Origin: an uncultured Porphyromonadaceae bacterium
GTDB taxonomy: Bacteria; Bacteroidota; Bacteroidia; Bacteroidales; Muribaculaceae
Assembly: GCA_947175605.1 (NCBI GenBank)
Contig: CAMWNH010000020.1
Location: 1-32,743 of the forward strand
Reading direction: 5' to 3'
Length of the DNA stretch: 32,743 nt
Both the position numbers and the translations under genes were made by a program. Shown in pieces: positions 8,457 through 28,942 of this stretch; position 1 is the first letter of the stretch; each line of letters starts with the position of its first letter. The notes beneath the pieces are model-generated. The model was given only the letters and a program-made list of their open reading frames with translations, did no database searches and was not told where the DNA came from.

Positions 8457-10031
8457 ATGACAAAGAAAGCGCTTATCGCAAATGTTGTGTTTGCGGTGGC
8501 GCTTTTTGTCGGTTTTCTGGCCATGCCTCCGATGGCCGATGATTTATGGTTCTCAACGGACATATATCAGGCCGGGCTTGAGGGTGGTTCTGTTTTTGAT
8601 TCCGCACTTGAGACTGTGCGGAATCATTATATCGGGGACAACGGGCGTGTGGCGAACGTGTTGTTCGCTCTTTCACTCCTCTTGCCTGAATGGGTAGGTA
8701 ATGCCTGCGCCATAATCGCATTTTCGATGGCCTTGTTTCTAGCTTACAGGCTTGTGAGCCGTGGTTCGAAAATGAGAACGGGATTGGTGTCCACGGCCCT
8801 AATGCTTTTCGGCGTGGCGTATGCGTTGCCTTGGTACGACTATATGTATCTGGAATGCTATCAGTTTAATTATGTTATTGCGACCGGGCTGTGTACGTGG
8901 GTGTGCTATGTTTTCCTCAATGCCAAGGCTGCATACGGTGGGCTCGCCACGGTTGCGGTCTTTTTTCTCTCTGCGGTTTGCGGCGGCTGGCATGAGGGAT
9001 TCAGTGTGCCGTTGGTGTGCGGAATTGTTGCCGTGATGCTTCTGTACCCCGAGTTCCGGAAGAAAAAGCAGATTGCGATATTGGCCGGACTGATATGCGG
9101 TATCGTATGGATAGTGCTTTGTCCTTCGACATTTTCGCGTCTTGGAGCGGGCGGTGGAGACGGACATAGGATTTTGTCGGTTATAATTCTTCATCCTGCT
9201 TTTGCGCTGATGGTCCTGACAAGTGCCATGGCGGCATTTTCGAACAAGGGTAGGGAGCTGTTGCGGAATCCGCTCACGGTGCTTTTCGGTGTGAGTGCGA
9301 TGGCGTCTATGGCCGTGCATATAGCGAGTGTGACCGCGCCGCGAGCCGGCTGGTGGTGTGAGTTCGCATCGGTTGTCGTGGTGGTGTTCTATGCAAATGC
9401 TTATTTCCGTGCATTCGGAAGGGCTGCAAAGATTGCAGCTGTGTTGGCTCTCGGGATTGTGTATGCGAAGCTGATTGTTTGCGATGTGCAGGCATTTGAA
9501 TACCGGGAGCAGTATTCGCGCTATGTCGGGGATTATCTGGAGTCGGAGGACGGCACGGTTTATCTGGATTTTACGCCGGAGTATTCCTCGCCGGTCATAG
9601 CATGGATGGCACCGACGTATCATGTATATTATGATTGGTTTCACCGGGTGATGTTTGCCGGCTGCTATGGCAATGAAGATAAGCTCCCGTCCGTGATTCC
9701 GTCTTCGATTCGGGAGGTGCGGTTCGGGGATGCTCCAAGGCTTGAATCGGATATCGATATCCGCAAGTACGGTGACTTTTATTTCTGCCGAGAGGAGGAG
9801 TTGTCGGAAATTGCGGGTGGCCGCTTGGATAAATCCGGAGAAGTGTTGGCGACCCTTCGTATGGGGCCGGTGACAAGACACGGGGTCAGGGTATTCTATT
9901 TTCTTTACGAGAATGTCCATGGCGAGAAATTGGCTCTATTGTTGCCGTGGCGTATATTTCCCCTGTCGCCGATATTTTCGATAGAGTCGATGGAGATGAA
10001 GACGGACGATGGTGTTGCCGTCGGAGGCTGA
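8457..10031 (+). CDS. Polytopic membrane protein, GT-C-like (DUF6056-like), paralogue 1
   Basis: The protein has 524 residues, with about 9-10 hydrophobic segments in the first 350 and a C-terminal soluble part of about 170. After the first membrane helix comes ADDLW (Asp28-Asp29), the position of the catalytic acidic pair in GT-C glycosyltransferases. Other marks shared with the two paralogues at 28943 and 30675 are NGRVAN (62-67), PWYD (125-128), FNYV (137-140) and WHEG (178-181). The family resembles what I remember as DUF6056; a lipid-linked sugar transferase role is inference. It starts 33 bp after the lipoprotein stop and precedes the nuo promoter. Confidence 0.8.
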   Translation: MTKKALIANVVFAVALFVGFLAMPPMADDLWFSTDIYQAGLEGGSVFDSALETVRNHYIGDNGRVANVLFALSLLLPEWVGNACAIIAFSMALFLAYRLVSRGSKMRTGLVSTALMLFGVAYALPWYDYMYLECYQFNYVIATGLCTWVCYVFLNAKAAYGGLATVAVFFLSAVCGGWHEGFSVPLVCGIVAVMLLYPEFRKKKQIAILAGLICGIVWIVLCPSTFSRLGAGGGDGHRILSVIILHPAFALMVLTSAMAAFSNKGRELLRNPLTVLFGVSAMASMAVHIASVTAPRAGWWCEFASVVVVVFYANAYFRAFGRAAKIAAVLALGIVYAKLIVCDVQAFEYREQYSRYVGDYLESEDGTVYLDFTPEYSSPVIAWMAPTYHVYYDWFHRVMFAGCYGNEDKLPSVIPSSIREVRFGDAPRLESDIDIRKYGDFYFCREEELSEIAGGRLDKSGEVLATLRMGPVTRHGVRVFYFLYENVHGEKLALLLPWRIFPLSPIFSIESMEMKTDDGVAVGG

Positions 10032-10058: not shown

Positions 10059-10083
10059 AACTTGAAAAAGTTTAAGTTTTTTT
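10059..10083 (+). terminator. Weak terminator-like hairpin before nuoA
   Basis: AACTT and AAGTT form a five-pair stem around a GAAA loop, followed by TAAG and seven T. The stem is short and AT-rich, so termination would be inefficient at best. Confidence 0.3.
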
Positions 10084-10114
10084 GTGTTATAGTGGGAAAA
10101 TTTTGTTACCTTTG
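10081..10114 (+). promoter_or_regulatory. Promoter of the nuo-atp-nuo operon
   Basis: TACCTTTG (10107-10114) fits the -7 consensus, and TTTG (10081-10084) lies 22 bp upstream in a T-rich stretch. It is the only good promoter I find before or within the following 18 genes. The start of transcription would be near 10119-10121, giving a leader of about 120 nt. Confidence 0.6.
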
Positions 10115-10242: not shown

Positions 10243-10620
10243 ATGTTATTAGGCATATTTGGAATTACGAACAACGGGCTGCTGGCGCTGACGGCGCTTC
10301 TGACCGGCGTGGCGCTTGTGGCGCTTGCGTTATGGATGGCCGGGCTACTGTCGCCCCGCTCGTTCAACCCACAGAAAGGCGAGGCCTACGAGTGCGGTAT
10401 CCCCACCCGCGGCGAGAGCATGGCACAGTTCAAGATCGGCTATTATCTCTTCGCCATTCTCTTCCTGATGTTTGATGTTGAAACCGTGTTTCTCTTCCCC
10501 TGGGCTGTTCGCATGCGCGAACTCGGCGTCAACGGGCTTCTGAGCATCGCGGTATTTTTTGGTGTCTTGGTGCTGGGCCTTGTCTATGCCTGGCGGAAAG
10601 GAGCTCTGGAATGGAAGTAA
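10243..10620 (+). CDS. nuoA: NADH-quinone oxidoreductase subunit A
   Basis: This 125-residue membrane subunit of respiratory complex I has three predicted helices. The family signature KGEAYECGIPTRG sits in the first loop and is followed by FKIGYYLFAILFLMFDVETVFLFPWAV, the conserved helix with the acidic residues. It is part of the Q-module/membrane-arm junction beside NuoH. It is first in the operon after a leader of about 120 nt, and its end overlaps the nuoB start by ten bases. The length is close to the family norm. Confidence 0.96.
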   Translation: MLLGIFGITNNGLLALTALLTGVALVALALWMAGLLSPRSFNPQKGEAYECGIPTRGESMAQFKIGYYLFAILFLMFDVETVFLFPWAVRMRELGVNGLLSIAVFFGVLVLGLVYAWRKGALEWK

Positions 10621-11219
10621 CAACCAAGAGCATGCCCTATGAGGCATGGAAGGATAACGAATATATCGAGTCGCTGGTCAAGGAGCTTCAGGAGAACGGC
10701 ACGAATGTTGTTGTCGGAGCGTTTGACAAGCTCATCAACTGGGGCCGTTCGAATTCTGTATGGCCTCTGACGTTCGCCACCAGCTGCTGCGGCATTGAGT
10801 TCGTATCGCTGGGTGCAGCGCGTTTCGATATGGCCCGTTTCGGCTGGGAAGTGGCACGTTCGTCGCCCCGTCAGGCGGACTTCATGATGGTTGCCGGAAC
10901 GATCGTCAACCGTATGGTGCCTGTGTTCCGACGTCTTTACGATCAGCTTGCCGAGCCCAAGTACGTGATTGCGTGCGGCGGCTGCGCTATTTCCGGCGGC
11001 CCGTTCCGCAAGAGCTATCATGTGGCCAAGGGTATCGAGGATATCGTGCCTGTGGATGTTTTTGTTCCCGGCTGTCCTCCGCGCCCCGAGGCAATGATTT
11101 ACGGCATAATGCAGCTATCGCGCAAGATGAAGGTCGAGAAGTTCTTCGGCGGCGTGAACCGTAAGGAGAAGCAGGAGAAGTTTCTGGCGGAGCACCCGGT
11201 GCCGGGCGTGAATGACTGA
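10611..11219 (+). CDS. nuoB: NADH-quinone oxidoreductase subunit B
   Basis: This 202-residue peripheral-arm subunit holds iron-sulfur cluster N2, which passes electrons to quinone. The four N2 ligands are visible: the adjacent cysteines of ATSCCG (59 and 60), Cys125 in CGGCAISGG and Cys155 in VPGCPPRPE. The segment FGWEVARSSPRQADFMMVAG is typical. It starts within the last codons of nuoA, so translation is probably coupled. A gap of 57 bp to nuoCD has no promoter or terminator that I can see. Confidence 0.97.
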   Translation: MEVTTKSMPYEAWKDNEYIESLVKELQENGTNVVVGAFDKLINWGRSNSVWPLTFATSCCGIEFVSLGAARFDMARFGWEVARSSPRQADFMMVAGTIVNRMVPVFRRLYDQLAEPKYVIACGGCAISGGPFRKSYHVAKGIEDIVPVDVFVPGCPPRPEAMIYGIMQLSRKMKVEKFFGGVNRKEKQEKFLAEHPVPGVND

Positions 11220-11276
11220 CGCGCGTGCTTCTGAAGACAAAACTATAATATCCAAGAAATATATCACATACAAAAT

Positions 11277-12908
11277 ATGGCAACTATCACCGAAAAGATA
11301 GCCAAGCTGTTCCCGCAGGTCGGCGTTGCGACAGTCGACGGGATTCCTCAGTTTACAGTGGAGGATAAGGACTGGCACGCTGTGGCCGAGGCATTGCGCC
11401 ACGACCCCGAGCTTGCAATGGACTATCTCGTAACGATTGTGGGCATGGACTGGACCGAGACACTGGGATGTATCTACTACCTGGAGTCGACGGCCAATCA
11501 CGCGCTGTGCTCGGTAAAGGTAACGACGGCAGACCGCGAAAATCCCATGCTTCACTCCGTGGAGGACATCTGGCATGTGGCCGGTCTTTACGAACGTGAG
11601 GTCTACGATTTCTTCGGCATCATATTCATCGGCAATCCCGATATGCGCCGTCTCTTCCTGAGCATCGACTGGAAGGGCTATCCTCTGCGCAAGGACTATG
11701 ACGAGGATCCGGCCCTGAATCCGATCTCGATCGAGAGCGAGCGTCAGAGCGACACGACTGACACATATGTCGAGATGCCTGACGGCAAGATCGAGAAGAA
11801 GACTGTGGAGATTTTCGGGAAGGACGATTTTGTTGTGAACATCGGTCCGCAGCACCCCGCCACGCACGGTGTGCTCCGCTTCCGCACGGCAGTGGACGGC
11901 GAGACCATCAAGAAGATCGACGTCTACATGGGCTATATCCACCGCGGCGTGGAGAAGCTTTGCGAGTCGCTCAACTATCCTCAGACGCTCCACTATTTCG
12001 ACCGTCTGGACTATTTCTCGGGCCATCACTACCACCACTGCGTGTGCAACCTGATCGAGCGTGCCGCCGGCATCGAGATCTCGCGCCGCGCCAAGGTGAT
12101 CCGCGTGATGATGGACGAGCTGGGCCGCATAGCATCGCACTGTCTGTTCATGGGCACGTTCTGCATGGACCTCGGTGCGACGACGATGCTGTTCTACACG
12201 CTGCGTGTGCGTGAGCAGATACTTGACATCATGGACAAGACCTGCGGCGCCCGCATGAGTTTCAATTATGAATGTATCGGCGGTCTGATGGCTGATATCG
12301 CCCCTGACTTCGTTCAGGACGTGAAGGCTCTGCTTGCCGTGCTTCCCGCCAACCTGAAGGAATACGATAAGATCTTCACGGGCAATGTCATCGCCAAGAA
12401 CCGTATGGAAGGCGTGGGCTATATCTCGAAGGAGGATGCCGTGGCCTACGGCGTGACGGGCCCCTCGGGCCGCGCTTCGGGCTGGGCCTGCGACGTACGC
12501 AAGACGCATCCCTACAGCATCTATCCGGAACTCGATTTCGAGCAGGTTGTTGCCACCGAGGGCGACTCGATGGCCCGCTTCAAGGTGCGCATGCGCGAAA
12601 TCGAGGAGTCGGCCAAGATTCTCGCGCAGCTCGTGGACAATATTCCCGAAGGCGAATATTGCGTGAAGGTGCCCAAGGTGCTGAAGCTTCCTGTGGGCTC
12701 GTGGTTCGAGATGGTGGAAGGTTGCCGCGGCACATTCGCCGTATATCTCGAGAGCGACGGCCAGACGAAACCTTACCGCATGAAAATCGTGCCTCCGTGT
12801 CTGCCGCTGGCTGCGGCCGTCGACTACATGACGGAAGGCCAGAAAATTGCCGACCTCATCACGATCGGCGGCTCGCTGGACTACATCGTGCCCGATATGG
12901 ACCGCTAA
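11277..12908 (+). CDS. nuoCD: NADH-quinone oxidoreductase fused subunits C and D
   Basis: This 543-residue fusion combines two peripheral-arm subunits of complex I. The C part (about 1-150) carries WHVAGLYEREVYDFFGI and GYPLRKDYDED. The D part (about 185-543) carries NIGPQHPATHGVLR, GYIHRGVEK and the helix with ELGRIASH, which line the quinone pocket with NuoB. C/D fusions also occur in enterobacteria; this one is shorter than the roughly 600 residues there, mainly in the linker. Stop to nuoH start is 52 bp. In the usual order nuoE, F and G would follow, but they are absent. Confidence 0.97.
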   Translation: MATITEKIAKLFPQVGVATVDGIPQFTVEDKDWHAVAEALRHDPELAMDYLVTIVGMDWTETLGCIYYLESTANHALCSVKVTTADRENPMLHSVEDIWHVAGLYEREVYDFFGIIFIGNPDMRRLFLSIDWKGYPLRKDYDEDPALNPISIESERQSDTTDTYVEMPDGKIEKKTVEIFGKDDFVVNIGPQHPATHGVLRFRTAVDGETIKKIDVYMGYIHRGVEKLCESLNYPQTLHYFDRLDYFSGHHYHHCVCNLIERAAGIEISRRAKVIRVMMDELGRIASHCLFMGTFCMDLGATTMLFYTLRVREQILDIMDKTCGARMSFNYECIGGLMADIAPDFVQDVKALLAVLPANLKEYDKIFTGNVIAKNRMEGVGYISKEDAVAYGVTGPSGRASGWACDVRKTHPYSIYPELDFEQVVATEGDSMARFKVRMREIEESAKILAQLVDNIPEGEYCVKVPKVLKLPVGSWFEMVEGCRGTFAVYLESDGQTKPYRMKIVPPCLPLAAAVDYMTEGQKIADLITIGGSLDYIVPDMDR

Positions 12909-12960
12909 GCGTGCAAGGCTAAAACAATAACTCGAAACAAAGAACCACATCATACGCATC

Positions 12961-14037
12961 ATGCAAGATTTATCTTTCATCACCGACTGGATACACAATA
13001 CCCTCCGGTCTTTTCTGCCCGGCTGGGCCACGGTGACGGTCGAATGTCTGTTCATAGGAGTGGGGCTACTGCTGGTCTACGCGCTGCTGGCCCTGTTCTA
13101 CATCTACTACGAGCGCAAGATCTGCGCGGCTTTCCAGTGCCGTCTGGGCCCGAACCGCGTGGGTCCGTGGGGTCTTCTGCAGAGCTTCGCCGATATGTTC
13201 AAGATGCTTATCAAGGAGCTCATCAGTCTGAATCATGTCGATAAGTTCCTTTTTGCGCTTGCACCTTATCTGGTGATCATCGCGTCCATGATGGCATTTG
13301 CCGTTCTGCCCTGGGGCAACGGTCTGCAGGTCGTGGACTTCAATATCGGCATTTTCTTCCTGATAGCCGTTTCGAGCATCGGTGTGCTGGGCATACTTCT
13401 GGCCGGCTGGTCGTCGAACAACAAGTTCACGCTGATCGGTTCACTCCGTTCGGGCGCGCAGATGGTGAGCTATGAAATCTCCATCGGTCTGACGGTGGTG
13501 ACGATGGTATGCCTTTCGGGCACCATGAGCGTGGGCGGCATCGTTCAGGAGCAGAGCGATCTCTGGTTCATCTTCAAGGGTCATGTGCCTGCGCTGATCG
13601 CATTTGTGGTGTATATGATCGCCGGTACGGCTGAAACCAACCGCGGCCCGTTCGACCTTCCCGAGGCAGAGTCGGAGCTGACGGCCGGCTACCACACGGA
13701 GTATTCGGGCATGCACTTCGGCTTCTTCTATCTGGCCGAGTACCTGAACCTGTTCATCGTGTCGGGCGTTGCGTCGCTTCTTTTCTTAGGCGGCTGGATG
13801 CCACTGCACATTCCCGGCTGGGAGGCTTTCAACCACATAATGGACTACATTCCGTCGGTTGTATGGTTCATCGGCAAGGCTGTGTTCCTGAGCTTCATCA
13901 TCATCTGGTTCAAGTGGACCTTCCCGCGTCTGCGAATCGACCAGCTTCTGAGTCTTGAATGGAAGTATCTGATGCCTATCAGCCTCGTGAACCTGGTGCT
14001 GATGGTGCTGATCATCACTTTCGGCTGGCACTTCTAA
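12961..14037 (+). CDS. nuoH: NADH-quinone oxidoreductase subunit H
   Basis: This 358-residue membrane subunit (about eight helices) forms the quinone entry channel and links the redox arm to the pumping arm. Signatures are [21 protein letters not shown] (51-71) and [16 protein letters not shown] (225-240), the acidic loop conserved in the family. The length is slightly above the usual 320-340. It is the last nuo gene before the ATP synthase block: atpD begins 74 bp later, and that gap shows no TAnnTTTG box and no terminator hairpin. In most operons nuoI comes next; here it is 7.1 kb away. Confidence 0.97.
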
Positions 14038-14066
14038 TCAGACTGCCCGACAGAATAAAAAATTAG

Positions 14067-15614
<1,548 letters not shown>

Positions 15615-15675
15615 GCCGGGCTGCGACAAAGGAAGAGTAAAAACAAAAGAACGCAAGCAACACAGGAAACGAGAG

Positions 15676-15912
15676 ATGACATTACGACTAATATCCGCCG
15701 AGGCCGTGTTATTCGACGGCGAAATCAAGAGTGTGACGCTTCCGGGCGCGCTGGGCGCGTTTCAGGTGCTCAAGAACCACGCCTCGCTGATTTCGACGCT
15801 GACGGCGGGCACCGTGCGCTATACGGACCCCTCGGGCGAGGAGCACAGCGCGGAGATCACGGGCGGTCTGGTGGACGTGGATTCGAATGTAGTTTCCGTG
15901 TGTGTTTACTGA
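15676..15912 (+). CDS. atpC: F1Fo ATP synthase subunit epsilon, short form
   Basis: This 78-residue central-stalk protein links gamma to the c ring. The N-terminal beta-sandwich is complete (LRLISAEAVLFDGEIKSVTLPG, GAFQVLKNHASLISTL, GGLVDVDSNVVSVCV), but the C-terminal pair of helices found in E. coli (about 139 residues in all) is missing. In E. coli those helices inhibit ATP hydrolysis, so this enzyme should lack that brake, or use another. The gene ends cleanly 18 bp before atpB, so this is not a frameshifted remnant within the visible sequence. Short epsilon is, as far as I recall, usual in Bacteroidota. Confidence 0.92.
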   Translation: MTLRLISAEAVLFDGEIKSVTLPGALGAFQVLKNHASLISTLTAGTVRYTDPSGEEHSAEITGGLVDVDSNVVSVCVY

Positions 15913-15930
15913 TAAAAAGGGATATCCCGG

Positions 15931-17049
15931 ATGAAAAAGCTAATCATATTCCTGACGGTGGTTGCGGCGCTGCTGATCCCTGTGACAGCCAGTGCGGAGG
16001 GCGAGCACTCTGAGGGCGGTCTGGACCCCAAGGAAATAATCTTCGAGCACCTGGGCGATGCCTATGGCTGGGAGGTTCCGTTTGACCATCATCACCGCAT
16101 TCCGCTTCCTGTAATAGTGTGGGCTCACGACGGCTTCCATTGCTTCTCGTCGAGCCACATCACCGGCGGGGAGACATATGTGGATGCAGGCACGGAGTTC
16201 AAGCTCGCGGGCATTGACTCGCCTTACAAGGGCAAGGTCGTAGAGATCGTGGACGGCAAGGAGCATCGCCCGCTGGACATCTCTATAACGAAGAATGTAT
16301 GTGCGGTGTGGATTACGGTGATTCTGGTGATCGGTCTGATGCTGTGGCTCGCATCGTTCCTGCGGAAGCATCCCTACAAGGCACCGCGCAAGGGTCTGGG
16401 CGGCCTGGAGGTGTGCGTGACCTTTATCTATGACGGCGTGATCAAGTCGATCTTAGGTCCGGACGCGCGTCGCTTCGCGCCGTATCTGATGACGGTTTTC
16501 TTCTTCATCCTGTTTATGAATCTTCTGGGCCTGGCCGTGGTTTTCCCCGGCGGCGCCAACCTTACGGGTAACATAGCCGTGACACTGGTGCTGTCGATAA
16601 TCACGTTCCTGGTGACGAATATTTTTGCGAACCGCCACTACTGGAAGGAAATCTTCTGGCCTGACGTGCCTCTGTGGCTGAAGTTCCCGCTGCCGATCAT
16701 GCCTGCGATCGAGGTTTTCGGCATGTTCACGAAGCCGGCTGCACTGACGGTGCGTCTGTTTGCAAATATGATGGGCGGCCACATGATCGTGCTTGTGCTG
16801 ACGCTTCTAATCTTCATTTTCTCGGCTGTGAACCCCGTGGCGGGTGGCTTTACGACGGTAGTTTCCGTCGGATTCTCGATCTTCATGCTGTTGATAGACG
16901 TACTTGTGAGCTTCATTCAGGCTTATGTGTTCACGATGCTGTCGACGATCTTCATCTCTCTGGCGCAGGAGAAGCCTCACGAGGCCCACAAGAAGGGCGA
17001 GAGCGAGGCTCACGTGATAGGCGAGGAAATCAAGGATGCGCTTGTATGA
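15931..17049 (+). CDS. atpB: F1Fo ATP synthase subunit a with N-terminal extension
   Basis: This 372-residue membrane stator subunit forms the ion half-channels. The essential arginine is Arg275 in ALTVRLFANMMGGHM. The core has about five to six helices in residues 125-355. Before it comes a signal-like helix (MKKLIIFLTVVAALLIPVTASA) and a soluble stretch of roughly 100 residues (22-125) with a His-rich patch DHHHR (52-56), so the chain is about 100 residues longer than E. coli AtpB (271). The extension would lie on the periplasmic side and its role is unknown. The C-terminus is charged (HEAHKKGESEAH). No atpI-like gene lies between atpC and this gene. Confidence 0.96.
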   Translation: MKKLIIFLTVVAALLIPVTASAEGEHSEGGLDPKEIIFEHLGDAYGWEVPFDHHHRIPLPVIVWAHDGFHCFSSSHITGGETYVDAGTEFKLAGIDSPYKGKVVEIVDGKEHRPLDISITKNVCAVWITVILVIGLMLWLASFLRKHPYKAPRKGLGGLEVCVTFIYDGVIKSILGPDARRFAPYLMTVFFFILFMNLLGLAVVFPGGANLTGNIAVTLVLSIITFLVTNIFANRHYWKEIFWPDVPLWLKFPLPIMPAIEVFGMFTKPAALTVRLFANMMGGHMIVLVLTLLIFIFSAVNPVAGGFTTVVSVGFSIFMLLIDVLVSFIQAYVFTMLSTIFISLAQEKPHEAHKKGESEAHVIGEEIKDALV

Positions 17050-17085
17050 TAATAAAGTAAAAATAAACAAAATAACCCCAACTAA

Positions 17086-17340
<255 letters not shown>

Positions 17341-17359
17341 AGGACGCTTACGGGCACGG

Positions 17360-17394
17360 GCTGCGTGCGGATTGCGGAAACATCCGCACGCGGC
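17360..17394 (+). other. Strong RNA hairpin between atpE and atpF
   Basis: A 13-pair stem (17360-17372 with 17382-17394, one T-G pair, the rest Watson-Crick) closes a 9-base loop, 20 bp after the atpE stop. No T-run follows, so it is not a standard terminator. Such a hairpin could block 3' exonucleases and raise the amount of upstream message, which would help make extra subunit c; this role is inferred. It is the most stable hairpin I noticed in the gaps inside the operon. Confidence 0.65.
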
Positions 17395-17455
17395 GCCGAC
17401 CCGAAAACATCTCTCTCCCACCATTTACCCACCACCTAACCCCCAACCGTAAAGA

Positions 17456-17953
17456 ATGGAACTATTCACTCCGGATTTCGGCTTGATATTCTGGATGTTC
17501 GTGGCCTTCGGCGTGCTTTTCTTAGTGCTCTGGCGCTTTGCGTGGCCCATGATACTGAAAAGTGTGGACGAGCGTGCCGACCTTATCGACAAGGGCGTGC
17601 AGTATGCTCAGAATGCCAAGGAGCAGCTTGAGAACGCCAACCGCGAGGCTCAGGGCTACATCGAGCAGGCGCGCCACAAGGAGGCTGATATCCTGCGCGA
17701 GGCCGACAAGATGCGCACACAAATCATCGAGGAGGCCCGAGTGGCTGCTCAGGCAGAGGCGCAGAAGGTAATGGACGCCGCCAAGGTGCAGATAGCTCAG
17801 CAGCAAAAGCAGGCGGAGGCACAATTCCGCAATCAGGTGAGCGATTTCGCGCTGCAGATTGCCGACAAGGTGGTGCGCGGCCAGATGGCAGACGCGGGAC
17901 GCCAGCAGGCGCTGGTGGACAGTCTGCTCACGGAAATAGAACATAAAAACTGA
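17456..17953 (+). CDS. atpF: F1Fo ATP synthase subunit b
   Basis: This 165-residue peripheral-stalk subunit has one N-terminal membrane helix (LIFWMFVAFGVLFLVLWRFAW, about 10-30), followed by a long charged helix rich in Ala, Glu, Gln and Lys that should form a coiled-coil dimer (about 40-140), typical of the family. The length matches the usual 155-170. The gap of 115 bp before it is the longest inside the operon and holds the hairpin described above. The gap to atpH is 11 bp. Confidence 0.95.
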   Translation: MELFTPDFGLIFWMFVAFGVLFLVLWRFAWPMILKSVDERADLIDKGVQYAQNAKEQLENANREAQGYIEQARHKEADILREADKMRTQIIEEARVAAQAEAQKVMDAAKVQIAQQQKQAEAQFRNQVSDFALQIADKVVRGQMADAGRQQALVDSLLTEIEHKN

Positions 17954-17964
17954 ATCAGGGAATC

Positions 17965-18519
17965 ATGGACCAAGGCTTAATCCCCCGCAGGTATGCGAAG
18001 GCGCTCCTGGAGACGGCCGATGAGCGCGGCGTGTCGGAGGCTCTTTACGGGCAGATGACAAGGCTGAACGAGTCGTTCGAGACGGAGCCGGCTCTGGGCA
18101 AGGCAATCTCGAATCCGTTTGTGAGCACGTCCGACAAGACGGCACTACTTGAGACGGCCTCGGGTGTGAAGCCGGACGACAAGGATGCGGCGACATTCGC
18201 GGATTTCGTGAAGCTGCTCGTGCAGAACAGCCGTATCGACCTGATGCGTGAGATCACGCTGGCCTATGTGGACCTGTACAGACGCGAGAATAATATAGTG
18301 CGTGTGGAGGTGACGAGCGCGGCCCCACTGGAGGAGTCGGCTCGTAAGCGCCTGCGTGCGATAATCGAAAGCAAACTCCCGTCCGACGGCAAGATCGAGC
18401 TGGAGGAGCACACGGACCCGTCGCTGATCGGCGGATTTGTGGTGAACATCAACAACGAGCGCCTGGATGCTTCGCTCAAGAACGAACTTGAGCAGCTCCG
18501 CCTCAACCTACTAAAGTAA
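17965..18519 (+). CDS. atpH: F1Fo ATP synthase subunit delta
   Basis: This 184-residue protein (OSCP family) joins the top of F1 to the b stalk. It shows the helical N-terminal domain starting PRRYAKALLETADERG, the middle NSRIDLMREI, and the C-terminal signature LIGGFVVNINNERLDASLKNELEQLR that is diagnostic for the family. The length is normal (about 180). It begins 11 bp after atpF and is followed by a 69-bp spacer before atpA with no promoter box. Confidence 0.95.
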   Translation: MDQGLIPRRYAKALLETADERGVSEALYGQMTRLNESFETEPALGKAISNPFVSTSDKTALLETASGVKPDDKDAATFADFVKLLVQNSRIDLMREITLAYVDLYRRENNIVRVEVTSAAPLEESARKRLRAIIESKLPSDGKIELEEHTDPSLIGGFVVNINNERLDASLKNELEQLRLNLLK

Positions 18520-18588
18520 AACCAACCAAACCAACCCCAAGGGCGAGGGCCGTCAGAGGTTTCTCAAGCCCGAAACAACATAACGATA

Positions 18589-20169
<1,581 letters not shown>

Positions 20170-20222
20170 AAGCAAGCAGAGATAACGAAAACGTAAACCA
20201 ACATCAGCACAAGAGACAATAG

Positions 20223-21113
20223 ATGGCAACCTTACGGGAACTAAAGGGACGCATAGGCTCGGTGAAGTCTTCGGAGAAAATCACGGGCGCGATGAAGATG
20301 ATTTCGTCGGCCAAGATGCATAAGGCCGAGGGCATCCTGCGCCGGCTCACGCCTTTCCGCGACTGCGTGCAGACCATAATCGGGAATCTGCTGGGCTCGG
20401 ATGCGGCAGTGAGCTCGCCTCTGACCACGGCGCACGCCACGACGTCGAAGGTTGCGCTTGTCGTATTCGGCAGTGACGACGGCTTGTGCGGCGGCTACAA
20501 CGTGAATATGTTCAAGTTCGCGCTTGGACGCATAGCGGAGCTGCGAGAGAAGTACGGCCGGGATGTGCGCATCACGATTGTGCCCGTGGGCCGCAAGCTG
20601 ACGCGAATGTTCCATGCATACGAGGCGAAGACGGGCGCTGTGAGCGTGTCGGAGACCGAGGGCGTGGATTCGAAGTCGGAGGGAGTTCCGGTGAAGGATT
20701 TCGGCCGGAAATTCGAGAGCGAATATCTGGGCGGAGAGACGGATCTGGTGGAGCTCGTGTATATGCGCTATTATTCGGCGGGCCGCCAGCGCGCAACGTG
20801 CGAGGATTATCTGCCGGTATCGGCACAGACGCTTCAGGGCGAGGCCAAGGGCACGGGGCGTCCGTGTCTGTTCGAGCCGGATGCGATGACGGTGTTCGGG
20901 ACGGTGATCCCGATGTATCTGCTGTCGAAGATGCAGGAGGCCTTCGGGCATAACCGGGCATCGGAACAGGCAGCGCGCGTGATGGCGATGCAGAGTGCGA
21001 ACGACAATGCGCAGAAGCTGCTGGAACAGCTGCAGCTTGAGTATAACAAGCTGCGTCAGCAGGGCATCACGACGGAGCTTCTGGATATCGTGGGCGGTCA
21101 GGCACGCGACTGA
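20223..21113 (+). CDS. atpG: F1Fo ATP synthase subunit gamma
   Basis: This 296-residue rotor shaft of F1 has the N-terminal helix ATLRELKGRIGSVKSSEKITGAMKMISSAKMHKAE and the C-terminal helix SANDNAQKLLEQLQLEYNKLRQQGITTELLDIVGG, which form the coiled coil inside the alpha-beta ring. The middle globular part carries VVFGSDDGLCGGYN. It closes the atp block. The gap to nuoI is only 35 bp, purine-rich, with no hairpin or promoter, so transcription should run straight into the second nuo block. Confidence 0.96.
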   Translation: MATLRELKGRIGSVKSSEKITGAMKMISSAKMHKAEGILRRLTPFRDCVQTIIGNLLGSDAAVSSPLTTAHATTSKVALVVFGSDDGLCGGYNVNMFKFALGRIAELREKYGRDVRITIVPVGRKLTRMFHAYEAKTGAVSVSETEGVDSKSEGVPVKDFGRKFESEYLGGETDLVELVYMRYYSAGRQRATCEDYLPVSAQTLQGEAKGTGRPCLFEPDAMTVFGTVIPMYLLSKMQEAFGHNRASEQAARVMAMQSANDNAQKLLEQLQLEYNKLRQQGITTELLDIVGGQARD

Positions 21114-21148
21114 TAAAGGAAAAAACAAGAAAAGAAAAATAAGCAACA

Positions 21149-21781
21149 ATGGGTAGTGTAAAAGATTATTTCTCCTCCTTAGGGACCGGCATCGTGAGCC
21201 TTCTGAAGGGCATGCAGGTTACGGGTAAGGAATTTATAACCCCCAAGATCACGGAGTGCTATCCGGAGAACCGCGAGACGCACAAGGTTGCGGATCGCTT
21301 CCGCGCGGAACTGCATTTCATCTATGACGCCGAAGGCAACCATAAGTGTATAGCATGCGGAAGCTGCGAGCGCGCGTGTCCGAACGGGACGATTTCTCTG
21401 GAGACGAAGATGGTGGACACTCCTGCCGGAACGAAAAAGAAGAAGCTGGACAAGTATTTTTACGATCTGGGGAGCTGCACGTTCTGTCAGATGTGTGTGA
21501 CGGTGTGTCCGACTCACGCCATAGATTTCGACAATGATTTCGAGCAGGCCGTGTTCACGCGTTCGAAGCTTGTGAAGCAGCTGAACTATCTCCCCGAGAA
21601 GGAGGAGCCGGCTCCGACCCCCGAAGAGCTTGCGAAGGCAGCAGCCGAGCGCGAGGCCAAAATCGCGGCTGCGAAGGCCAAGGCTGCGGCAATGAAGGCC
21701 GCGAAGGAGGCAGAGGCTGCCGCTGCGGCTAAGACCGAAGCCGGCGCCCCTGAGGCACCGATGGCAGAGGGACAGGCATAA
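21149..21781 (+). CDS. nuoI: NADH-quinone oxidoreductase subunit I with Ala/Lys/Glu-rich tail
   Basis: This 210-residue ferredoxin-like subunit carries clusters N6a and N6b on the electron path to N2. Cluster motifs are CIACGSCERAC (Cys67, 70, 73, 77) and CTFCQMCVTVC (Cys110, 113, 116, 120), each followed by Pro. After about residue 151 comes a tail of nearly 60 residues, low in complexity and made of Ala, Lys, Glu and Pro (EEPAPTPEELAKAAAEREAK and on), likely a charged helix. Family members I know are about 150-180 residues, so the tail is an extension of unknown role. It restarts the nuo order directly after atpG. Confidence 0.96.
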   Translation: MGSVKDYFSSLGTGIVSLLKGMQVTGKEFITPKITECYPENRETHKVADRFRAELHFIYDAEGNHKCIACGSCERACPNGTISLETKMVDTPAGTKKKKLDKYFYDLGSCTFCQMCVTVCPTHAIDFDNDFEQAVFTRSKLVKQLNYLPEKEEPAPTPEELAKAAAEREAKIAAAKAKAAAMKAAKEAEAAAAAKTEAGAPEAPMAEGQA

Positions 21782-21808
21782 ACGAGAGAAAATAAATAAA
21801 CCAACATA

Positions 21809-22321
21809 ATGGAATCTGTAGGAAGTATCATTCTTTATTGTGTCGTCGCACTGTCGATGATAATCTTCTCGGTACTGGCCGTGACCACGCGGAAAATTCT
21901 GCGTGCCGCGACTTACCTGCTGTTCACGCTTTTTGCCGCCGCCGTGGTGTACTTCATGCTGGACTATGAGTTCCTCGGCGCGGTGCAGATAGCTGTGTAT
22001 GCGGGCGGTATCGTGGTGCTGTTCGTGTTCTCGATTCTGCTGACAAGCCGCCCGGGGGACAACTCGGAGCGTCTGACGTCGCGGTCGAAGGTTCTTGGCC
22101 TGATAGGCGCACTGGCAATGCTGGGCGTGTCGGGCTGGGCACTACTGGGCCGCTGTGCGGACTTCGCGAAGCTGCCGGAGATGAAGTATGTGACGATGGA
22201 TGCCATCGGTACGGCACTGATGGGAACCGGCGAGAACCAGTATCTGCTGCCTTTCGAGGCTGTGTCTGTGCTTCTGCTGGCATGTATAATCGGCGGTGTT
22301 GTCATCGCACGTAAACGTTAA
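21809..22321 (+). CDS. nuoJ: NADH-quinone oxidoreductase subunit J
   Basis: This 170-residue membrane-arm subunit has five predicted helices. Conserved features are the first helix running into RKILRAATYLLFTLFAAAVVYF and the segment GAVQIAVYAGGIVVLFVFSILLTS, the helix that contains the pi bulge in known structures. The gap from nuoI is 27 bp and to nuoK 10 bp, consistent with the usual I-J-K order. Confidence 0.95.
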   Translation: MESVGSIILYCVVALSMIIFSVLAVTTRKILRAATYLLFTLFAAAVVYFMLDYEFLGAVQIAVYAGGIVVLFVFSILLTSRPGDNSERLTSRSKVLGLIGALAMLGVSGWALLGRCADFAKLPEMKYVTMDAIGTALMGTGENQYLLPFEAVSVLLLACIIGGVVIARKR

Positions 22322-22331
22322 GGATTACACC

Positions 22332-22643
22332 ATGGAATTTACAGCAATCTATTACCTGATTCCGGCGCTGATAATGTTCTGTGCCGGCGTGTACGGGTTC
22401 ATCACCCGTAAGAATATGATAGCGATGCTGATCTCGCTGGAGCTGATGCTCAATGCGGTCGACATCAATTTCGTGGTCTTCAATCGCTTCCTCTTCCCGG
22501 AGGCAATGGAGGGTATGTTCTTCACGCTGTTCGCCATAGCGATAGCGGCAGCCGAGACAGCTCTCGCGATAGCCATCATCATCAACATCTACCGCTCGAA
22601 CAAGAGTGTGGATGTGCGCACCCTAAACGAAATGAAATTCTAA
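22332..22643 (+). CDS. nuoK: NADH-quinone oxidoreductase subunit K
   Basis: This 103-residue subunit with three membrane helices is related to MrpC antiporter subunits. The two key glutamates are visible: Glu37 in LISLELMLNAVDINF and Glu75 in AIAAAETALAIAI. The reading frame is open from 22296, which would overlap nuoJ, but ATG 22332 gives the standard length and N-terminus. The stop lies six bases before nuoL. Confidence 0.95.
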   Translation: MEFTAIYYLIPALIMFCAGVYGFITRKNMIAMLISLELMLNAVDINFVVFNRFLFPEAMEGMFFTLFAIAIAAAETALAIAIIINIYRSNKSVDVRTLNEMKF

Positions 22644-22649
22644 GGCCCT

Positions 22650-24581
22650 ATGGAATCGACATTACCAATTCTTATTCTTGCCATACCGCTGGCGATGTTC
22701 CTGATTCTGGGCATCGCGGGATGCAAGATGAGCCATAAGCTTGCAGCCGCGCTGGGCATTGCGGGCATGGGCACGACGCTTGTGCTCTCATATATCACGG
22801 CTCTCACTTACTTTTTCGCACCTGAATTCACGGGCGCCGACGGCCTGCGCGAGCAGCTGACGGTGTTCAACTGGGAGTGGCTTGCCTTCACGAAGAATCT
22901 CGTGATAAGCCTCGGCTTCTTCCTTGATCCGATCTCGGCCATGATGCTGATCGTGATCACGACGATCTCGTTTATGGTCCATCTGTACAGTCTGGGCTAC
23001 ATGGAGGGCGAACGCGGCTTCCAGCGCTATTATGCGTTCCTGTCGCTGTTCAGCTTCTCGATGCTCGGTCTGGTCGTGGCCACGAATATTTTCCAGATGT
23101 ATATTTTCTGGGAGCTCGTGGGCGCGTCGTCGTATCTTCTGATCGGCTTCTACTATCGTCTGCACTCGGCTGTTGCGGCATCGAAGAAGGCGTTTATCGT
23201 TACGCGTTTCGCCGACCTGGGCTTCCTGATCGGTATTCTTGTTTTGTCGTACTACACGCAGACATTTGATTTCGTGAAGATGACTTCGGATCCGTCGTGG
23301 GTTCTTGAGTCGACCGGAGGCGCGACTTTCATGGGCGCTTCCGTGCTGACCTGGGCTCTGGTGCTGATCTTCACTGGCGGTATGGGTAAGTCGGCTATGA
23401 TGCCTCTGCACATCTGGCTTCCGGACGCCATGGAAGGCCCGACGCCTGTTTCGGCGCTGATCCATGCTGCAACGATGGTCGTGGCAGGTGTGTTCCTGGT
23501 GGCACGTATGTTCCCGGTATATATGCTTGAAGGTTCTGCAACGATGATAATCGTGGTTGTTGGCGCCCTGACGGCGTTCTATGCAGCTATGGTTGCCTGC
23601 GCGCAGATTGACATCAAGCGTATCCTGGCATTCTCGACCATTTCGCAGATCGCGTTCATGATGGTTGCGCTGGGTGTAGCTTCCGCCGGCCACGGCGAGG
23701 TGTCGCACCACGGCCTTGGCTACATGGCATCGATGTTCCATCTGTTCACGCACGCAATGTTCAAGGCTCTGCTCTTCCTGGGAGCGGGCGCGCTGATCCA
23801 TGCCGTTCATTCGAACAATTATACGGCCATGGGCGGCCTGCGCAAGTATATGCCCATCACTCACTGGACGTTCCTTATCGGCTGTCTTGCCATCGCAGGT
23901 ATCCCTCCCTTCTCGGGCTTCTTCTCGAAGGACGAGATTCTGGCTGCCTGCTATGCGTGGAGCCCCTACATCGGAGTATGGATGAGCATGGTGGCTGCCC
24001 TGACGGCGTTCTACATGTTCCGCATGTACTATCTGATATTCTGGTGGAACGAACCTCACTACCATCACGCTCCGCATGATGCGCCCGTGAGCATGAGCAT
24101 TCCTCTGATTTTCCTCGCAGCCGTGAGCTGTGTGGCCGGCTTCATTCCCTTCGGTCATTTCGTGACGTGGAACCGTATGCCTTATGACATCCACATCGAG
24201 CTGCCCGTGGCTATTTCGAGCGTGGTTATCGCATTAGTGGCCATCGCCATCGCGCGCCACATGTATATTAAGGAGAATCCTCTGCCTGCCAAGATGAAGG
24301 CTGCCCTGCCTCGTCTCTGGGACTGGTGTCACCACCGTTTCTACTGGGACGAGCTGTATCAGTTCATCACGCACAGAATCATATTCAACGGCATCTGCCG
24401 TCCGCTGGCCTGGTTCGACCGCCATATCATCGATGGCACGATGGATTCGTTCGCCACGGTTACGAACAAGGCATCGGATGCTATCCGTCCCCTGCAGTCG
24501 GGTCAGGTTCAGATGTATGTATGGTATTATCTGATCGGCGCACTTCTGCTTGCAGGTGTAACAGCCGTGTGTGTACTGTAA
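22650..24581 (+). CDS. nuoL: NADH-quinone oxidoreductase subunit L
   Basis: This 643-residue antiporter-like subunit is the distal proton pump, with the long lateral helix at its C-terminus. The pump residues Glu155 (MYIFWELVGASSYLLIGFYY) and Lys247 (GGMGKSAMMPLHIWLPDAMEGPTP) are present, as are HAATMVVAGVFLVARMFP and KRILAFSTISQIAFM. The family length is about 600-650. A His-rich loop NEPHYHHAPHDAP interrupts helices near residues 466-478; that is common in NuoL. The gap to nuoM is 41 bp. Confidence 0.97.
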   Translation: MESTLPILILAIPLAMFLILGIAGCKMSHKLAAALGIAGMGTTLVLSYITALTYFFAPEFTGADGLREQLTVFNWEWLAFTKNLVISLGFFLDPISAMMLIVITTISFMVHLYSLGYMEGERGFQRYYAFLSLFSFSMLGLVVATNIFQMYIFWELVGASSYLLIGFYYRLHSAVAASKKAFIVTRFADLGFLIGILVLSYYTQTFDFVKMTSDPSWVLESTGGATFMGASVLTWALVLIFTGGMGKSAMMPLHIWLPDAMEGPTPVSALIHAATMVVAGVFLVARMFPVYMLEGSATMIIVVVGALTAFYAAMVACAQIDIKRILAFSTISQIAFMMVALGVASAGHGEVSHHGLGYMASMFHLFTHAMFKALLFLGAGALIHAVHSNNYTAMGGLRKYMPITHWTFLIGCLAIAGIPPFSGFFSKDEILAACYAWSPYIGVWMSMVAALTAFYMFRMYYLIFWWNEPHYHHAPHDAPVSMSIPLIFLAAVSCVAGFIPFGHFVTWNRMPYDIHIELPVAISSVVIALVAIAIARHMYIKENPLPAKMKAALPRLWDWCHHRFYWDELYQFITHRIIFNGICRPLAWFDRHIIDGTMDSFATVTNKASDAIRPLQSGQVQMYVWYYLIGALLLAGVTAVCVL

Positions 24582-24622
24582 ATGAGCAAACGGAGCAAAT
24601 AAACCCTTAAAAAGTCATTACG

Positions 24623-26128
24623 ATGTTTTCCAATATATTGATTTATTTTGTGGTGATTCCGCTGGTGATGCTTGGCGGACTTGCCCTTTGCCAGAATATC
24701 CGTCAGATCCGGGCGGTGGCAGTGACAGGCTCGCTGGCGCTGATAGGTCTTTCGGCTTACGTGCTTGCGGAGTATCTGGGCATGCGCGCAGCGGGCAACG
24801 AAGACCCGATGGTTTTCGTTGACAGCTGGATGTGGTTCGCACCGCTGAACATCCACCTTGCAGTGGGCGTGGACGGTATTTCGATAGCCATGCTGATTCT
24901 TTCGTCGATCATCGTTTTCGCGGGCTCTTTCGCGTCGTGGGAGATCAAGGATCCGAAGGCGTTCTTCCTTTGGCTGATCCTGCTGTCGACGGGTGTGTTC
25001 GGCTTCTTTATCTCGATAGATCTCTTCACGATGTTCATGTTCTATGAGGTGGCCCTTATCCCGATGTATCTTCTTATCGGTGTGTGGGGTTCGGGCAACA
25101 AGAACTATTCGGCCATGAAGCTCACGCTGATGCTGATGGGCGGATCGGCGTTCCTGATGCTTGGCCTCATCGGTATTTACTACCACTCGGCTCCCGAGGG
25201 CGGACAGCTGACATGGAATATTCTGGAGATTGCACGCAACGGTTCGATCGACCATGGCTGGCAGACGTTCCTGTTCCCGATGACGTTCGTGGGCTTCGGT
25301 GTTCTGGGAGCAATGTTCCCGTTCCACACGTGGTCGCCCGACGGTCATGCTTCGGCGCCGACGGCAGTGTCGATGCTTCATGCCGGTGTGCTGATGAAGC
25401 TTGGCGGCTACGGCTGTTTCCGTGTTGCTATCTATCTGATGCCACAGGCTGCACACGAGCTTTCGTGGATATTCCTGATCCTGACCGGTATCTCGGTTGT
25501 TTACGGTGCGTTCTGCGCATGCGTGAAGACGGATCTGAAGTATATCAACGCATATTCGTCGGTGTCGCACTGCGGCCTGGTGCTGTTCGCTATCCTGATG
25601 CTGAATGAGACGGCTATGACGGGTGCTATCATGCAGATGCTCTCGCACGGCCTGATGACGGCACTGTTCTTCGCTCTGATCGGTATGATTTACGGACGTA
25701 CACATACCCGCGAAATCACGCAGATGGGCGGTATGATGCAGATCATGCCTTATCTGTCGGTGTGCTACGTTATCGCCGGTATGGCGTCGCTGGGTCTCCC
25801 CGGTCTTAGCGGTTTCGTTTCGGAGATGACGATATTCGTCGGTTCGTTCCAGCATTCGGATATGTTCCACCGCGTGTTCACCATCGCAGCCTGCTGCTCG
25901 ATCGTGATTACGGCCGTGTACATCCTGCGTGTCGTGGGCAAGCTGCTGTTCGGCCCGGTTTACGACGAGCACCATCTGTCGCTGACTGACGCAACGTGGT
26001 GGGAACGCCTGTCGACGGTGACGCTGATCATCAGCGTTGCTGCCATCGGCTGCTTCCCCAACTTCTTCAATCACCTGATTAATTTCACTTTCAAGCCGGC
26101 GATCTTCGCTGTCCTTGGCCTGAACTAA
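24623..26128 (+). CDS. nuoM: NADH-quinone oxidoreductase subunit M
   Basis: This 501-residue antiporter-like pumping subunit has about 14 helices. Glu142 in FTMFMFYEVALIPMYLLIG is the conserved helix-5 glutamate. FPFHTWSPDGHASAPTAVSMLHAGVLMKLGGYG and DLKYINAYSSVSHCGLV are family signatures. The gap to nuoN is 15 bp. No internal promoter was noticed. Confidence 0.97.
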   Translation: MFSNILIYFVVIPLVMLGGLALCQNIRQIRAVAVTGSLALIGLSAYVLAEYLGMRAAGNEDPMVFVDSWMWFAPLNIHLAVGVDGISIAMLILSSIIVFAGSFASWEIKDPKAFFLWLILLSTGVFGFFISIDLFTMFMFYEVALIPMYLLIGVWGSGNKNYSAMKLTLMLMGGSAFLMLGLIGIYYHSAPEGGQLTWNILEIARNGSIDHGWQTFLFPMTFVGFGVLGAMFPFHTWSPDGHASAPTAVSMLHAGVLMKLGGYGCFRVAIYLMPQAAHELSWIFLILTGISVVYGAFCACVKTDLKYINAYSSVSHCGLVLFAILMLNETAMTGAIMQMLSHGLMTALFFALIGMIYGRTHTREITQMGGMMQIMPYLSVCYVIAGMASLGLPGLSGFVSEMTIFVGSFQHSDMFHRVFTIAACCSIVITAVYILRVVGKLLFGPVYDEHHLSLTDATWWERLSTVTLIISVAAIGCFPNFFNHLINFTFKPAIFAVLGLN

Positions 26129-26143
26129 GCAAATAGTGTTGCA

Positions 26144-27619
26144 ATGGATTACTCGCAATTTCTAACAATGAAACAGGAACTCGGCCTGCTGGTCGTTTTT
26201 CTCCTGGTATTTCTTTATGACACGTTCATGCCGGGCCGCACGCAGAAGGCTCTCCCGGCAGTGACGACTGTGCTGATGCTTCTTCTGACGGTTGCAGGTT
26301 TCTGCCCCTGCGTGCTGGGCACGTGTGGCGAGACCGTGGCCTTCTCGGGAATGTATGAGACGTCGCCCGTGATCTGCGCAATCAAGAATATCCTGAACAT
26401 AGGCGTTGTGATTGTTCTGCTTCAGAGCATCCAGTGGGCCAACAGCGACGGCATGCGCATGCGCCGCGGCGAGTTCTACGAGCTGCTGCTCGTGACGCTG
26501 TTCGGTATGTATCTGATGATTTCGTCGCGCCACTTCCTGATGTTCATCATCGGCCTTGAAAGTGCATCGCTTCCTCTTGCAGCTATGACTGCCCTGAACA
26601 AGGACAGCCATGAGAGCCACGAGGCTGCCGGCAAGTATATCCTGACGGCTGTGTTCTCGTCGGCTATCTTCATGATGGGCCTGTCGTTTGTCTACGGTCT
26701 TTGCGGCTCGCTCTATTTCTCGAATATCTATGTGAGCGTTGCATCGGAGATGAATCTGATGCTCGTATGCGCTGTGGCGTTTGTCATCGCGGGTATCGGT
26801 TTCAAGCTCTCGCTCGTGCCTTTCCACCTATGGACGGCTGATGTATATCAGGGCGCTCCTACGTCCGTGACGTCTTACCTGTCCGTTATTTCCAAGGGAG
26901 CTACGGCTTTCGCCTTCATGGCGGTGCTTGCTCAGGTGTTCGGCACGGTGTACTCTCAGATCTGGGAGTGGATGCTCTATGCGCTGATTATCCTTACGAT
27001 CACGGTAGGCAACCTGTTCGCAATCCGTCAGCGCAACATGAAGCGCTTTCTGGCGTTCTCGTCGGTGTCGCAGGCCGGTTACATCATGCTCGGCATCATT
27101 GCCTATAATGCTATGGGTGTTGCAGCCATGATGTACTACATTCTGGTATATATCTTCTCGAATCTGGCGGCCTTCGGCGTGATCGGAGCTATCGAGAATG
27201 CAACGGGGCGTGTGTCGATGGATGATTACCGCGGACTCCACAAGACGAATCCCCGTCTTTCGTTCGCTATGATGCTTGCGATGTTCTCGCTTGCAGGTAT
27301 CCCTCCGTTCGCCGGGTTCTTCTCGAAGTTCTTCATCTTTACGGGTGCGCTGAATCAGGGTTCGATTGCAATCTATGTGCTGGTGCTGATCGCCCTTATC
27401 AATACGATCATTTCGCTTTACTACTATCTGCTGGTGGTTAAAGCGATGTATATCAGCGATGAGGATTGTGTGATACCGACATTCCGTTCGGCTTGCTCGG
27501 AGCGCCTGGGTCTGTGGATCACCGTGGGCGGCATCATCTTCCTCGGTCTTGTAAGCTGCATCTACAGCGGTCTGCTGAACATGATGGCTGATTCCGCTCT
27601 CAGCATCTTCTTCATTTAA
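26144..27619 (+). CDS. nuoN: NADH-quinone oxidoreductase subunit N
   Basis: This 491-residue antiporter-like pumping subunit is closest to the quinone site and last in the operon. Glu139 in FLMFIIGLESASLPLAAM is the helix-5 glutamate. LVPFHLWTADVYQGAPTSVTSYLSVISKGA and KRFLAFSSVSQAGYIMLG are diagnostic of NuoN. The length is normal (about 480). It ends 20 bp before a strong terminator hairpin. Confidence 0.97.
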   Translation: MDYSQFLTMKQELGLLVVFLLVFLYDTFMPGRTQKALPAVTTVLMLLLTVAGFCPCVLGTCGETVAFSGMYETSPVICAIKNILNIGVVIVLLQSIQWANSDGMRMRRGEFYELLLVTLFGMYLMISSRHFLMFIIGLESASLPLAAMTALNKDSHESHEAAGKYILTAVFSSAIFMMGLSFVYGLCGSLYFSNIYVSVASEMNLMLVCAVAFVIAGIGFKLSLVPFHLWTADVYQGAPTSVTSYLSVISKGATAFAFMAVLAQVFGTVYSQIWEWMLYALIILTITVGNLFAIRQRNMKRFLAFSSVSQAGYIMLGIIAYNAMGVAAMMYYILVYIFSNLAAFGVIGAIENATGRVSMDDYRGLHKTNPRLSFAMMLAMFSLAGIPPFAGFFSKFFIFTGALNQGSIAIYVLVLIALINTIISLYYYLLVVKAMYISDEDCVIPTFRSACSERLGLWITVGGIIFLGLVSCIYSGLLNMMADSALSIFFI

Positions 27620-27639: not shown

Positions 27640-27678
27640 AGCGCCGGACTCCCTATTCGGGGATGTCCGGCGCTACGT
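27640..27678 (+). terminator. Terminator of the nuo-atp-nuo operon
   Basis: A perfect 10-pair stem (27640-27649 with 27665-27674), with an inner CCC/GGG stem, is followed by ACGTTTT. The T-run is short, so release may be partial, but this is the only strong terminator-like hairpin after the 18 genes. Confidence 0.75.
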
Positions 27679-28916: not shown

Positions 28917-28924
28917 TATCTTTG
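28917..28924 (+). promoter_or_regulatory. -7 box directly before GT-C-like paralogue 2
   Basis: TATCTTTG fits TAnnTTTG, just after the T-run of the terminator, and would give a leader of about 15 nt. I see no -33 element at the right distance, so this is a weak candidate for a private promoter. Confidence 0.35.
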
Positions 28925-28942
28925 CAGAGTATAAGACCAGAG

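Follow-up and report, generated by a model that had tools for sequence, protein, structure and literature searches.

The 32,743-nucleotide window analysed here, positions 1-32743 of contig C20 (CAMWNH010000020.1) from an uncultured Porphyromonadaceae bacterium placed by GTDB in the Muribaculaceae, carries at 10243-27619 a run of 18 plus-strand genes in the order nuoA-B-CD-H / atpD-C-B-E-F-H-A-G / nuoI-J-K-L-M-N, i.e. a set of ATP synthase genes nested among the genes of complex I, two machines that are normally encoded and controlled apart. The source genome (assembly GCA_947175605.1) comprises 2.24 Mb in 99 contigs and is 98% complete. Genes were named by NCBIfam profile scans of the open reading frames (ORFs) of the window; several subunits, including NuoA, NuoI, NuoJ and AtpC, fall below every curated NCBIfam cut-off listed, and for these the top-scoring families all name the expected subunit. 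All 11 subunits of the 11-subunit complex I (NuoA, B, C, D, H, I, J, K, L, M and N) and a complete F-type ATP synthase (alpha, beta, gamma, delta, epsilon, a, b and c) are encoded in the cluster, and the G+C content is alike in both parts (nuo 0.555, atp 0.583). A first-pass annotation of this DNA had proposed the same gene set, order and positions, with junctions of 74 and 35 bp; ORFs with the corresponding NCBIfam matches stand at those places, and the lengths match the stop and start coordinates. The features, all on the plus strand, are:

10081..10114, plus: putative promoter of the whole cluster; TTTG at 10081-10084, 22 bases, then the -7 box TACCTTTG at 10107-10114
10243..10620, plus: nuoA (NCBIfam)
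10611..11219, plus: nuoB (NCBIfam)
11277..12908, plus: nuoCD, C and D fused (NCBIfam)
12961..14037, plus: nuoH (NCBIfam)
14038..14111, plus: nuoH-atpD junction, 74 bp (nuoH stop 14037, atpD ATG 14112); no promoter or terminator signal above chance among relatives
14112..15614, plus: atpD, F1 beta (TIGR01039, E=1.1e-232)
15676..15912, plus: atpC, F1 epsilon (NCBIfam)
15931..17049, plus: atpB, Fo a (NCBIfam)
17101..17340, plus: atpE, Fo c (NCBIfam); proton-type by its motif
17456..17953, plus: atpF, Fo b (NCBIfam)
17965..18519, plus: atpH, F1 delta (NCBIfam)
18589..20169, plus: atpA, F1 alpha (TIGR00962, E=8.7e-226)
20223..21113, plus: atpG, F1 gamma (NCBIfam)
21114..21148, plus: atpG-nuoI junction, 35 bp (atpG stop 21113, nuoI ATG 21149); no promoter or terminator signal above chance among relatives
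21149..21781, plus: nuoI (NCBIfam)
21809..22321, plus: nuoJ (NCBIfam)
22296..22643, plus: nuoK (NCBIfam); the ORF opens with GTG at 22296, the likelier start being ATG 22332
22650..24581, plus: nuoL (NCBIfam)
24623..26128, plus: nuoM (NCBIfam)
26144..27619, plus: nuoN (NCBIfam)
27640..27678, plus: probable terminator past nuoN, a GC-rich inverted repeat read by eye

Distribution and origin of the nested gene order

The search of related genomes for the two junctions that the first-pass annotation had suggested was carried out on a set of 92 loci, consisting of the window, the best 80 of 363 named relatives and 11 loci from other nested genomes, no two of which share an identical nuoH. The named loci are the NuoH matches closest to the window and mainly represent Muribaculaceae, a major mouse-gut family; many are Muribaculaceae such as Duncaniella muris DSM 103720 (L057) and Paramuribaculum intestinale DSM 100749 (L064), and the closest NuoH among named genomes (96% identity) is that of an uncultured metagenome-assembled genome (MAG) filed under Porphyromonadaceae; these neighbours suggest a Muribaculaceae host. 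nuoH is followed by atpD in all 89 assessable loci; in the other three (L054, L083 and L084) the contig ends no more than 113 bp past nuoH, or nuoH is unclosed at the end. Likewise atpG is followed by nuoI in 66 of 66 assessable loci, two of the 68 that reach atpG ending inside that gene. The junction gaps are all 187 bp or less, with medians of 46 (nuoH-atpD) and 48 bp (atpG-nuoI). An assembly artefact at both junctions, to which the 99 contigs of the source assembly might lend some colour, has a negligible probability: the same order recurs in other assemblies, including those of the two cultured isolates just named, and AtpG-NuoI adjacency is found in the one-contig genomes G303 and G272.

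A wider search of the order with NuoH covered 148 genomes, of which 79 matched; there were 58 strong matches besides the window (E <=1.1e-129), and 40 of these loci were retrieved. Eleven are nested and belong to seven families (f1, f22, f28, f58, f65, f84 and f103), while in the remaining 29, from 25 other families, nuoH is in every case followed by nuoI. For a larger sample of the order, AtpG and NuoI served as queries against 393 genomes (E <=1e-50, pairs compared by eye); AtpG was matched in 45 and NuoI in 42, and the two are adjacent on one strand in 34 genomes, all from the same seven families. This threshold may miss more divergent cases, and the count covers those members of the seven families that have AtpG and NuoI matches, so that loss or reversal in the others is possible. 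At the level of the phylum, NuoH and AtpD were used as queries against 198 genomes; nuoH-atpD adjacency occurs in none of 100 other genomes among the matches listed with both positions, the nearest starts lying 12.7 kb apart.

On a tree of concatenated Nuo proteins (45 rows, 17 nested) the nested rows form one group (Shimodaira-Hasegawa approximate likelihood-ratio support 100) that requires one change of state. A marker tree of NusG, RplJ, RplL, RpoB, RpoC, EF-Tu, RplK and RplA, with names assigned by reading, also joins the nested genomes in one group (100/100); it holds 25 genomes, 11 of them nested, and lacks f84, whose genome gave no rpoB match. Its deep order is weak, with long branches for G044, G123 and G125. 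An earlier Nuo tree, on which the nested rows were not one group, was discarded for its nuoL paralogues in the nuoM and nuoN slots of cut-off loci; an RpoB-only tree with a wrong G143 ORF and a marker set with antisense ORFs were also discarded, and both gave one nested group.

The trees and gene orders together indicate a single insertion of the atp operon at the nuoH/nuoI boundary that preceded the split of the seven families. The first-pass annotation had left open whether atp was inserted or nuo was split around it, and had asked for the age of the event; insertion into nuo, and not the reverse, follows from the adjacency of nuoH and nuoI in other families (29/29 loci), and the event is an old one, with a single origin on both trees, common to the seven families. 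That the nested order is instead ancestral, with nuo and atp separated later in other lineages, is very improbable: on the nuo tree a single branch sets the nested clade apart, which by itself leaves the direction undecided, but the nuoH-nuoI adjacency of the 25 other families and the phylum-wide absence of nuoH-atpD pairs among the matches listed both speak against it.

Loci L127 and L129, from family f30, show a second way of splitting nuo: nuoA to nuoL are in order and the contigs continue, but their next 11 kb showed no nuoM or nuoN. An AtpA search of 26 genomes gave a single strong match, located in the cluster, for each of the 12 nested ones; three non-nested genomes (G066, G093 and G143) have only weak AtpA matches and no strong F-type one, and several relatives seem, from frame lengths, to have both F-type and V-type enzymes. 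A link between nesting and loss of the V-type ATPase was considered and rejected, since matches with V-type-looking frames are absent not only from the 12 nested genomes but from several of the non-nested genomes as well.

Source of the inserted atp operon

The atp tree (24 rows, 10 non-nested) places G136, of family f100, as sister to the nested atp genes with support of 100/100 on a long stem. Other genes of G136 are placed elsewhere: its grouping with the nested clade is rejected by the marker tree in the approximately unbiased (AU) test (p=0.0013), and on the nuo tree it is grouped with G059. The atp data in turn reject trees in which the nested rows are joined by six other genomes without G136 (AU p 7e-106, from a rerun that includes G044, which the atp tree places inside the group and which the first AU run had omitted), as well as those that put G136 with its nuo-tree relatives G059, G185 and G044 (p 2.6e-6). 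G136 was therefore set aside as a simple vertical intermediate.

A gene-content character runs alongside. Six of eight separate atp loci of the order that were examined carry a small ORF of 119-141 aa between atpC and atpB, which is missing from G136 and G044 and for which the nested loci have no room, their atpC-atpB gap having a median of 11 bp and a maximum of 162 (75 loci). The small ORF looks like a membrane protein (e.g. L155 3836-4258, L157 6012-6437 and L163 3950-4351), and of five copies that were scanned none gave a Pfam match above its cut-off. Family f100 thus resembles the nested group in having the closest atp operon outside it and, in G136, in lacking the small ORF, but differs in that nuo and atp are separate, with nuoH followed by nuoI: the two operons are convergent and about 11 kb apart in G136, convergent and 33 kb apart in G411, which is in one contig, and on different contigs in G301. 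The closeness of the two operons in f100 may be due to chance.

Judged by these trees and by the small ORF, the atp operons of the nested group and of f100 have a common history that other atp operons do not share. Since the f100 atp is closest to the nested one but f100 is placed elsewhere by its other genes, the inserted operon has probably moved laterally, in one direction or the other; the alternative is a hidden duplication with loss.

Transcription signals and the case for one message

Primary promoters of Bacteroidota are described in PMC7366714 as having TAnnTTTG at -7 and TTTG near -33. The front promoter claimed by the first-pass annotation at 10081-10114 fits this consensus. Counts of promoter and terminator signals given here are consensus matches in related genomes, with chance values from shuffles; boxes were sought in the 300 bp before nuoA and, at the junctions, in the gap together with the last 100 bp of the upstream gene. 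The TAnnTTTG box stands before nuoA in 77 of 81 loci, vs 12.4 by chance, and is accompanied by TTTG or TTG at a fitting distance in 39 of the 81. At the nuoH-atpD junction, by comparison, there are 3 boxes in 89 loci vs 6.2 expected, and at atpG-nuoI 1 in 66 vs 1.7; in the remaining internal gaps of the cluster the box is never above chance. Terminator-like sites were found at 0/89 nuoH-atpD and 1/66 atpG-nuoI junctions and at 5/12 positions past nuoN. The absence of promoter and terminator signals that had been claimed for the junctions of the window thus extends to its relatives. The terminator claimed at 27640-27678 stands in part: the GC-rich inverted repeat is present, but its T-run is short and the terminator scan does not list it. 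Scans of the window with an E. coli-type promoter (16 matches vs 11.1 from shuffles) and for terminator-like sites (24 vs 15.7) say little for Bacteroidota; they give no match in either junction, and the E. coli-type promoter matches were set aside.

Where atp is a separate operon, a -7 box precedes atpD in 9 of 11 cases (chance 0.17-0.32 each). Non-nested nuo operons have the box before nuoA in only 10 of 28 cases (chance 5.0); either the front promoter of nuo may have become stronger in Muribaculaceae, or the distant families may differ in their promoter.

By consensus signals, then, the cluster has the marks of an operon, i.e. one strand, short gaps, a front promoter and a terminator behind, with weaker signals outside Muribaculaceae, and co-transcription of all 18 genes is likely. 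The proposed course of events is that a complete F-type atp operon entered an 11-subunit complex I operon a single time, at the boundary of nuoH and nuoI, that it now shows no recognisable promoter of its own, and that one long message, starting at the promoter (10081-10114) and ending near 27678, would make both machines, the ATP synthase being made only when complex I is transcribed. Taken as a whole, the reading of a single atp insertion into nuo in the ancestor of the seven families, with the 18 genes probably on one message, is held with good confidence. In a stronger version, put forward tentatively at somewhat less than an even chance, a laterally shared atp operon that landed in a Bacteroidales ancestor was left with no promoter of its own, and the seven families have depended on the complex I message for their ATP synthase ever since; they would then be unable to make the synthase unless a complex I that does not use NADH is transcribed too, and one 17-kb message would set the level of a whole proton circuit. 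Fixed stoichiometry, which the first-pass annotation had added, is unsupported, as a shared message does not give it; each ATP synthase requires some ten copies or more of its c subunit.

Several points weigh against the favoured reading of one insertion and one message. The loci counted come from relatives and are not independent of each other. The window and 69/69 named loci have the front box, against only 7 of 11 loci of the other nested genomes (8/11 with alternative start placement), so the front promoter is less clear outside Muribaculaceae. Support for the nested group in the atp phylogeny is only 93/93. The two separate atpD genes without a box, in G136 and G411, are both from f100; G301, the third genome of that family, does have a box. 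As the closest atp operon is that of f100, loss of the atp promoter may predate nesting and not have been caused by it. A promoter unlike TAnnTTTG, one lying deeper than 100 bp inside nuoH or atpG, or processing of the mRNA could split expression. The 3' part of the nested cluster can also come away, as locus L078 (18524-21074, in a Candidatus Amulumruptor MAG) indicates: its nested cluster ends after nuoI and is followed by lipoprotein-like and L,D-transpeptidase-like ORFs, and the 1.8 kb that come next contain none of nuoJ to nuoN.

Neighbourhood alone, in which the cluster is contiguous but atp and the second half of nuo have starts of their own and give two or three transcripts without shared control, is unlikely. 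In its favour, ATP synthase is usually made at a high level, whereas PMC7002350 reports poor expression of the B. fragilis nuo operon in rich medium. In addition, two of the three f100 atp operons have no -7 box in the 300 bp searched, and atp operons of this kind may rely on a promoter to which the motif is blind. Set against this are the junction boxes at or below chance (89 and 66 loci), compared with those at the cluster front and before 9 of 11 separate atp operons, the near absence of terminator-like sites from both junctions, and short gaps in all assessable loci.

A neutral fusion, compatible with the single insertion and common message favoured here, comes close to an even chance: a chance rearrangement would have been kept as atp lost its promoter, with no bioenergetic benefit. 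Promoter loss alone would trap the arrangement, and the convergent f100 operons, some 11 and 33 kb apart, show that nearness occurs without nesting. According to PMC7002350, nuo deletion in B. fragilis caused no significant loss of NADH:quinone activity or of colonisation. Nothing found directly contradicts a neutral origin, and the nesting in 34 genomes fits both readings.

A lineage including Muribaculaceae appears to have fused the expression of complex I and ATP synthase, once. The weight of the finding lies in an old arrangement of single origin, kept in the genomes found, and not in a new machine. It offers a natural experiment on operon fusion, on what is gained when a pump and the enzyme that uses its gradient share a promoter. 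It also hints at a physiological tie between ATP synthesis and the 11-subunit complex I, which is poorly understood, and provides a trait of gene order by which a clade of gut Bacteroidales can be recognised.

Both operons are known; judged by the literature searched, the new element is that they are fused. The 11-subunit nuo operon of B. fragilis likewise lacks nuoE, F and G but forms its own operon (BF638R_0850-0841), as described in PMC7002350, whereas nuo is here split by atp at nuoH/nuoI. Similarly, the Bacteroides/Prevotella atp operon of PMC5709465 has the same eight-gene order on one strand (beta-epsilon-a-c-b-delta-alpha-gamma) but is described as a transcription unit of atp genes, which are here located inside nuo. 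No description of nuo and atp in one cluster was found in the open-licence literature searched: the available parts of PMC7002350, PMC5709465, PMC7561548, PMC7366714, PMC4154653 and PMC7143216 contain no such cluster, and nothing on nuo, NQR, ATP synthase or complex I was found in PMC12632263.

Electron input, coupling ion and neighbouring genes

No NuoF, the subunit that would mark an NADH-oxidising 14-subunit complex I, was found in the genome of the window by a PF01512 search, the only Complex1_51K match being RnfC; NuoE and NuoG are not in the cluster, and no genome search was made for them. For the corresponding 11-subunit complex I of B. fragilis, PMC7002350 reports no NADH activity and an unknown electron donor. 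The genome also has an rnf operon (G000:C5, L192 797-5672), with RnfB, RnfC, RnfE and RnfA by NCBIfam, and NqrF, which gives three candidate ion pumps, rnf, NQR and complex I; NQR is usually a sodium pump. The pairing of "ion pump and its main consumer" in the first-pass annotation is uncertain because no NuoF was found and NqrF and rnf are also present.

An Na+-binding c subunit is marked by a Gln in helix 1 and a Ser or Thr after the Glu of helix 2. AtpE reads GIGIGKIG and ALVEGVALF, without this motif, and its best structural matches include both proton-type and sodium-type rings; from its residues, proton coupling of this ATP synthase is likely. The physiology would then be that of a complex I which has no NADH module and pumps protons for use by a proton-type ATP synthase. 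If so, complex I and the synthase would share an ion and one switch, with NQR controlled apart.

atp and nuo may also be adjacent in some Bacilli; a literature search for this turned up nothing. In the rest of the window, DUF6056 proteins lie on both flanks of the cluster (8457-10031 and 28922-30628), and the upstream genes encode glycosyltransferases, a protein of the Pfam Beta-lactamase family and a TonB-dependent receptor. The window starts with two minus-strand tRNA genes, one at 1-54 that is cut by the window edge and a tRNA-Arg at 90-164.

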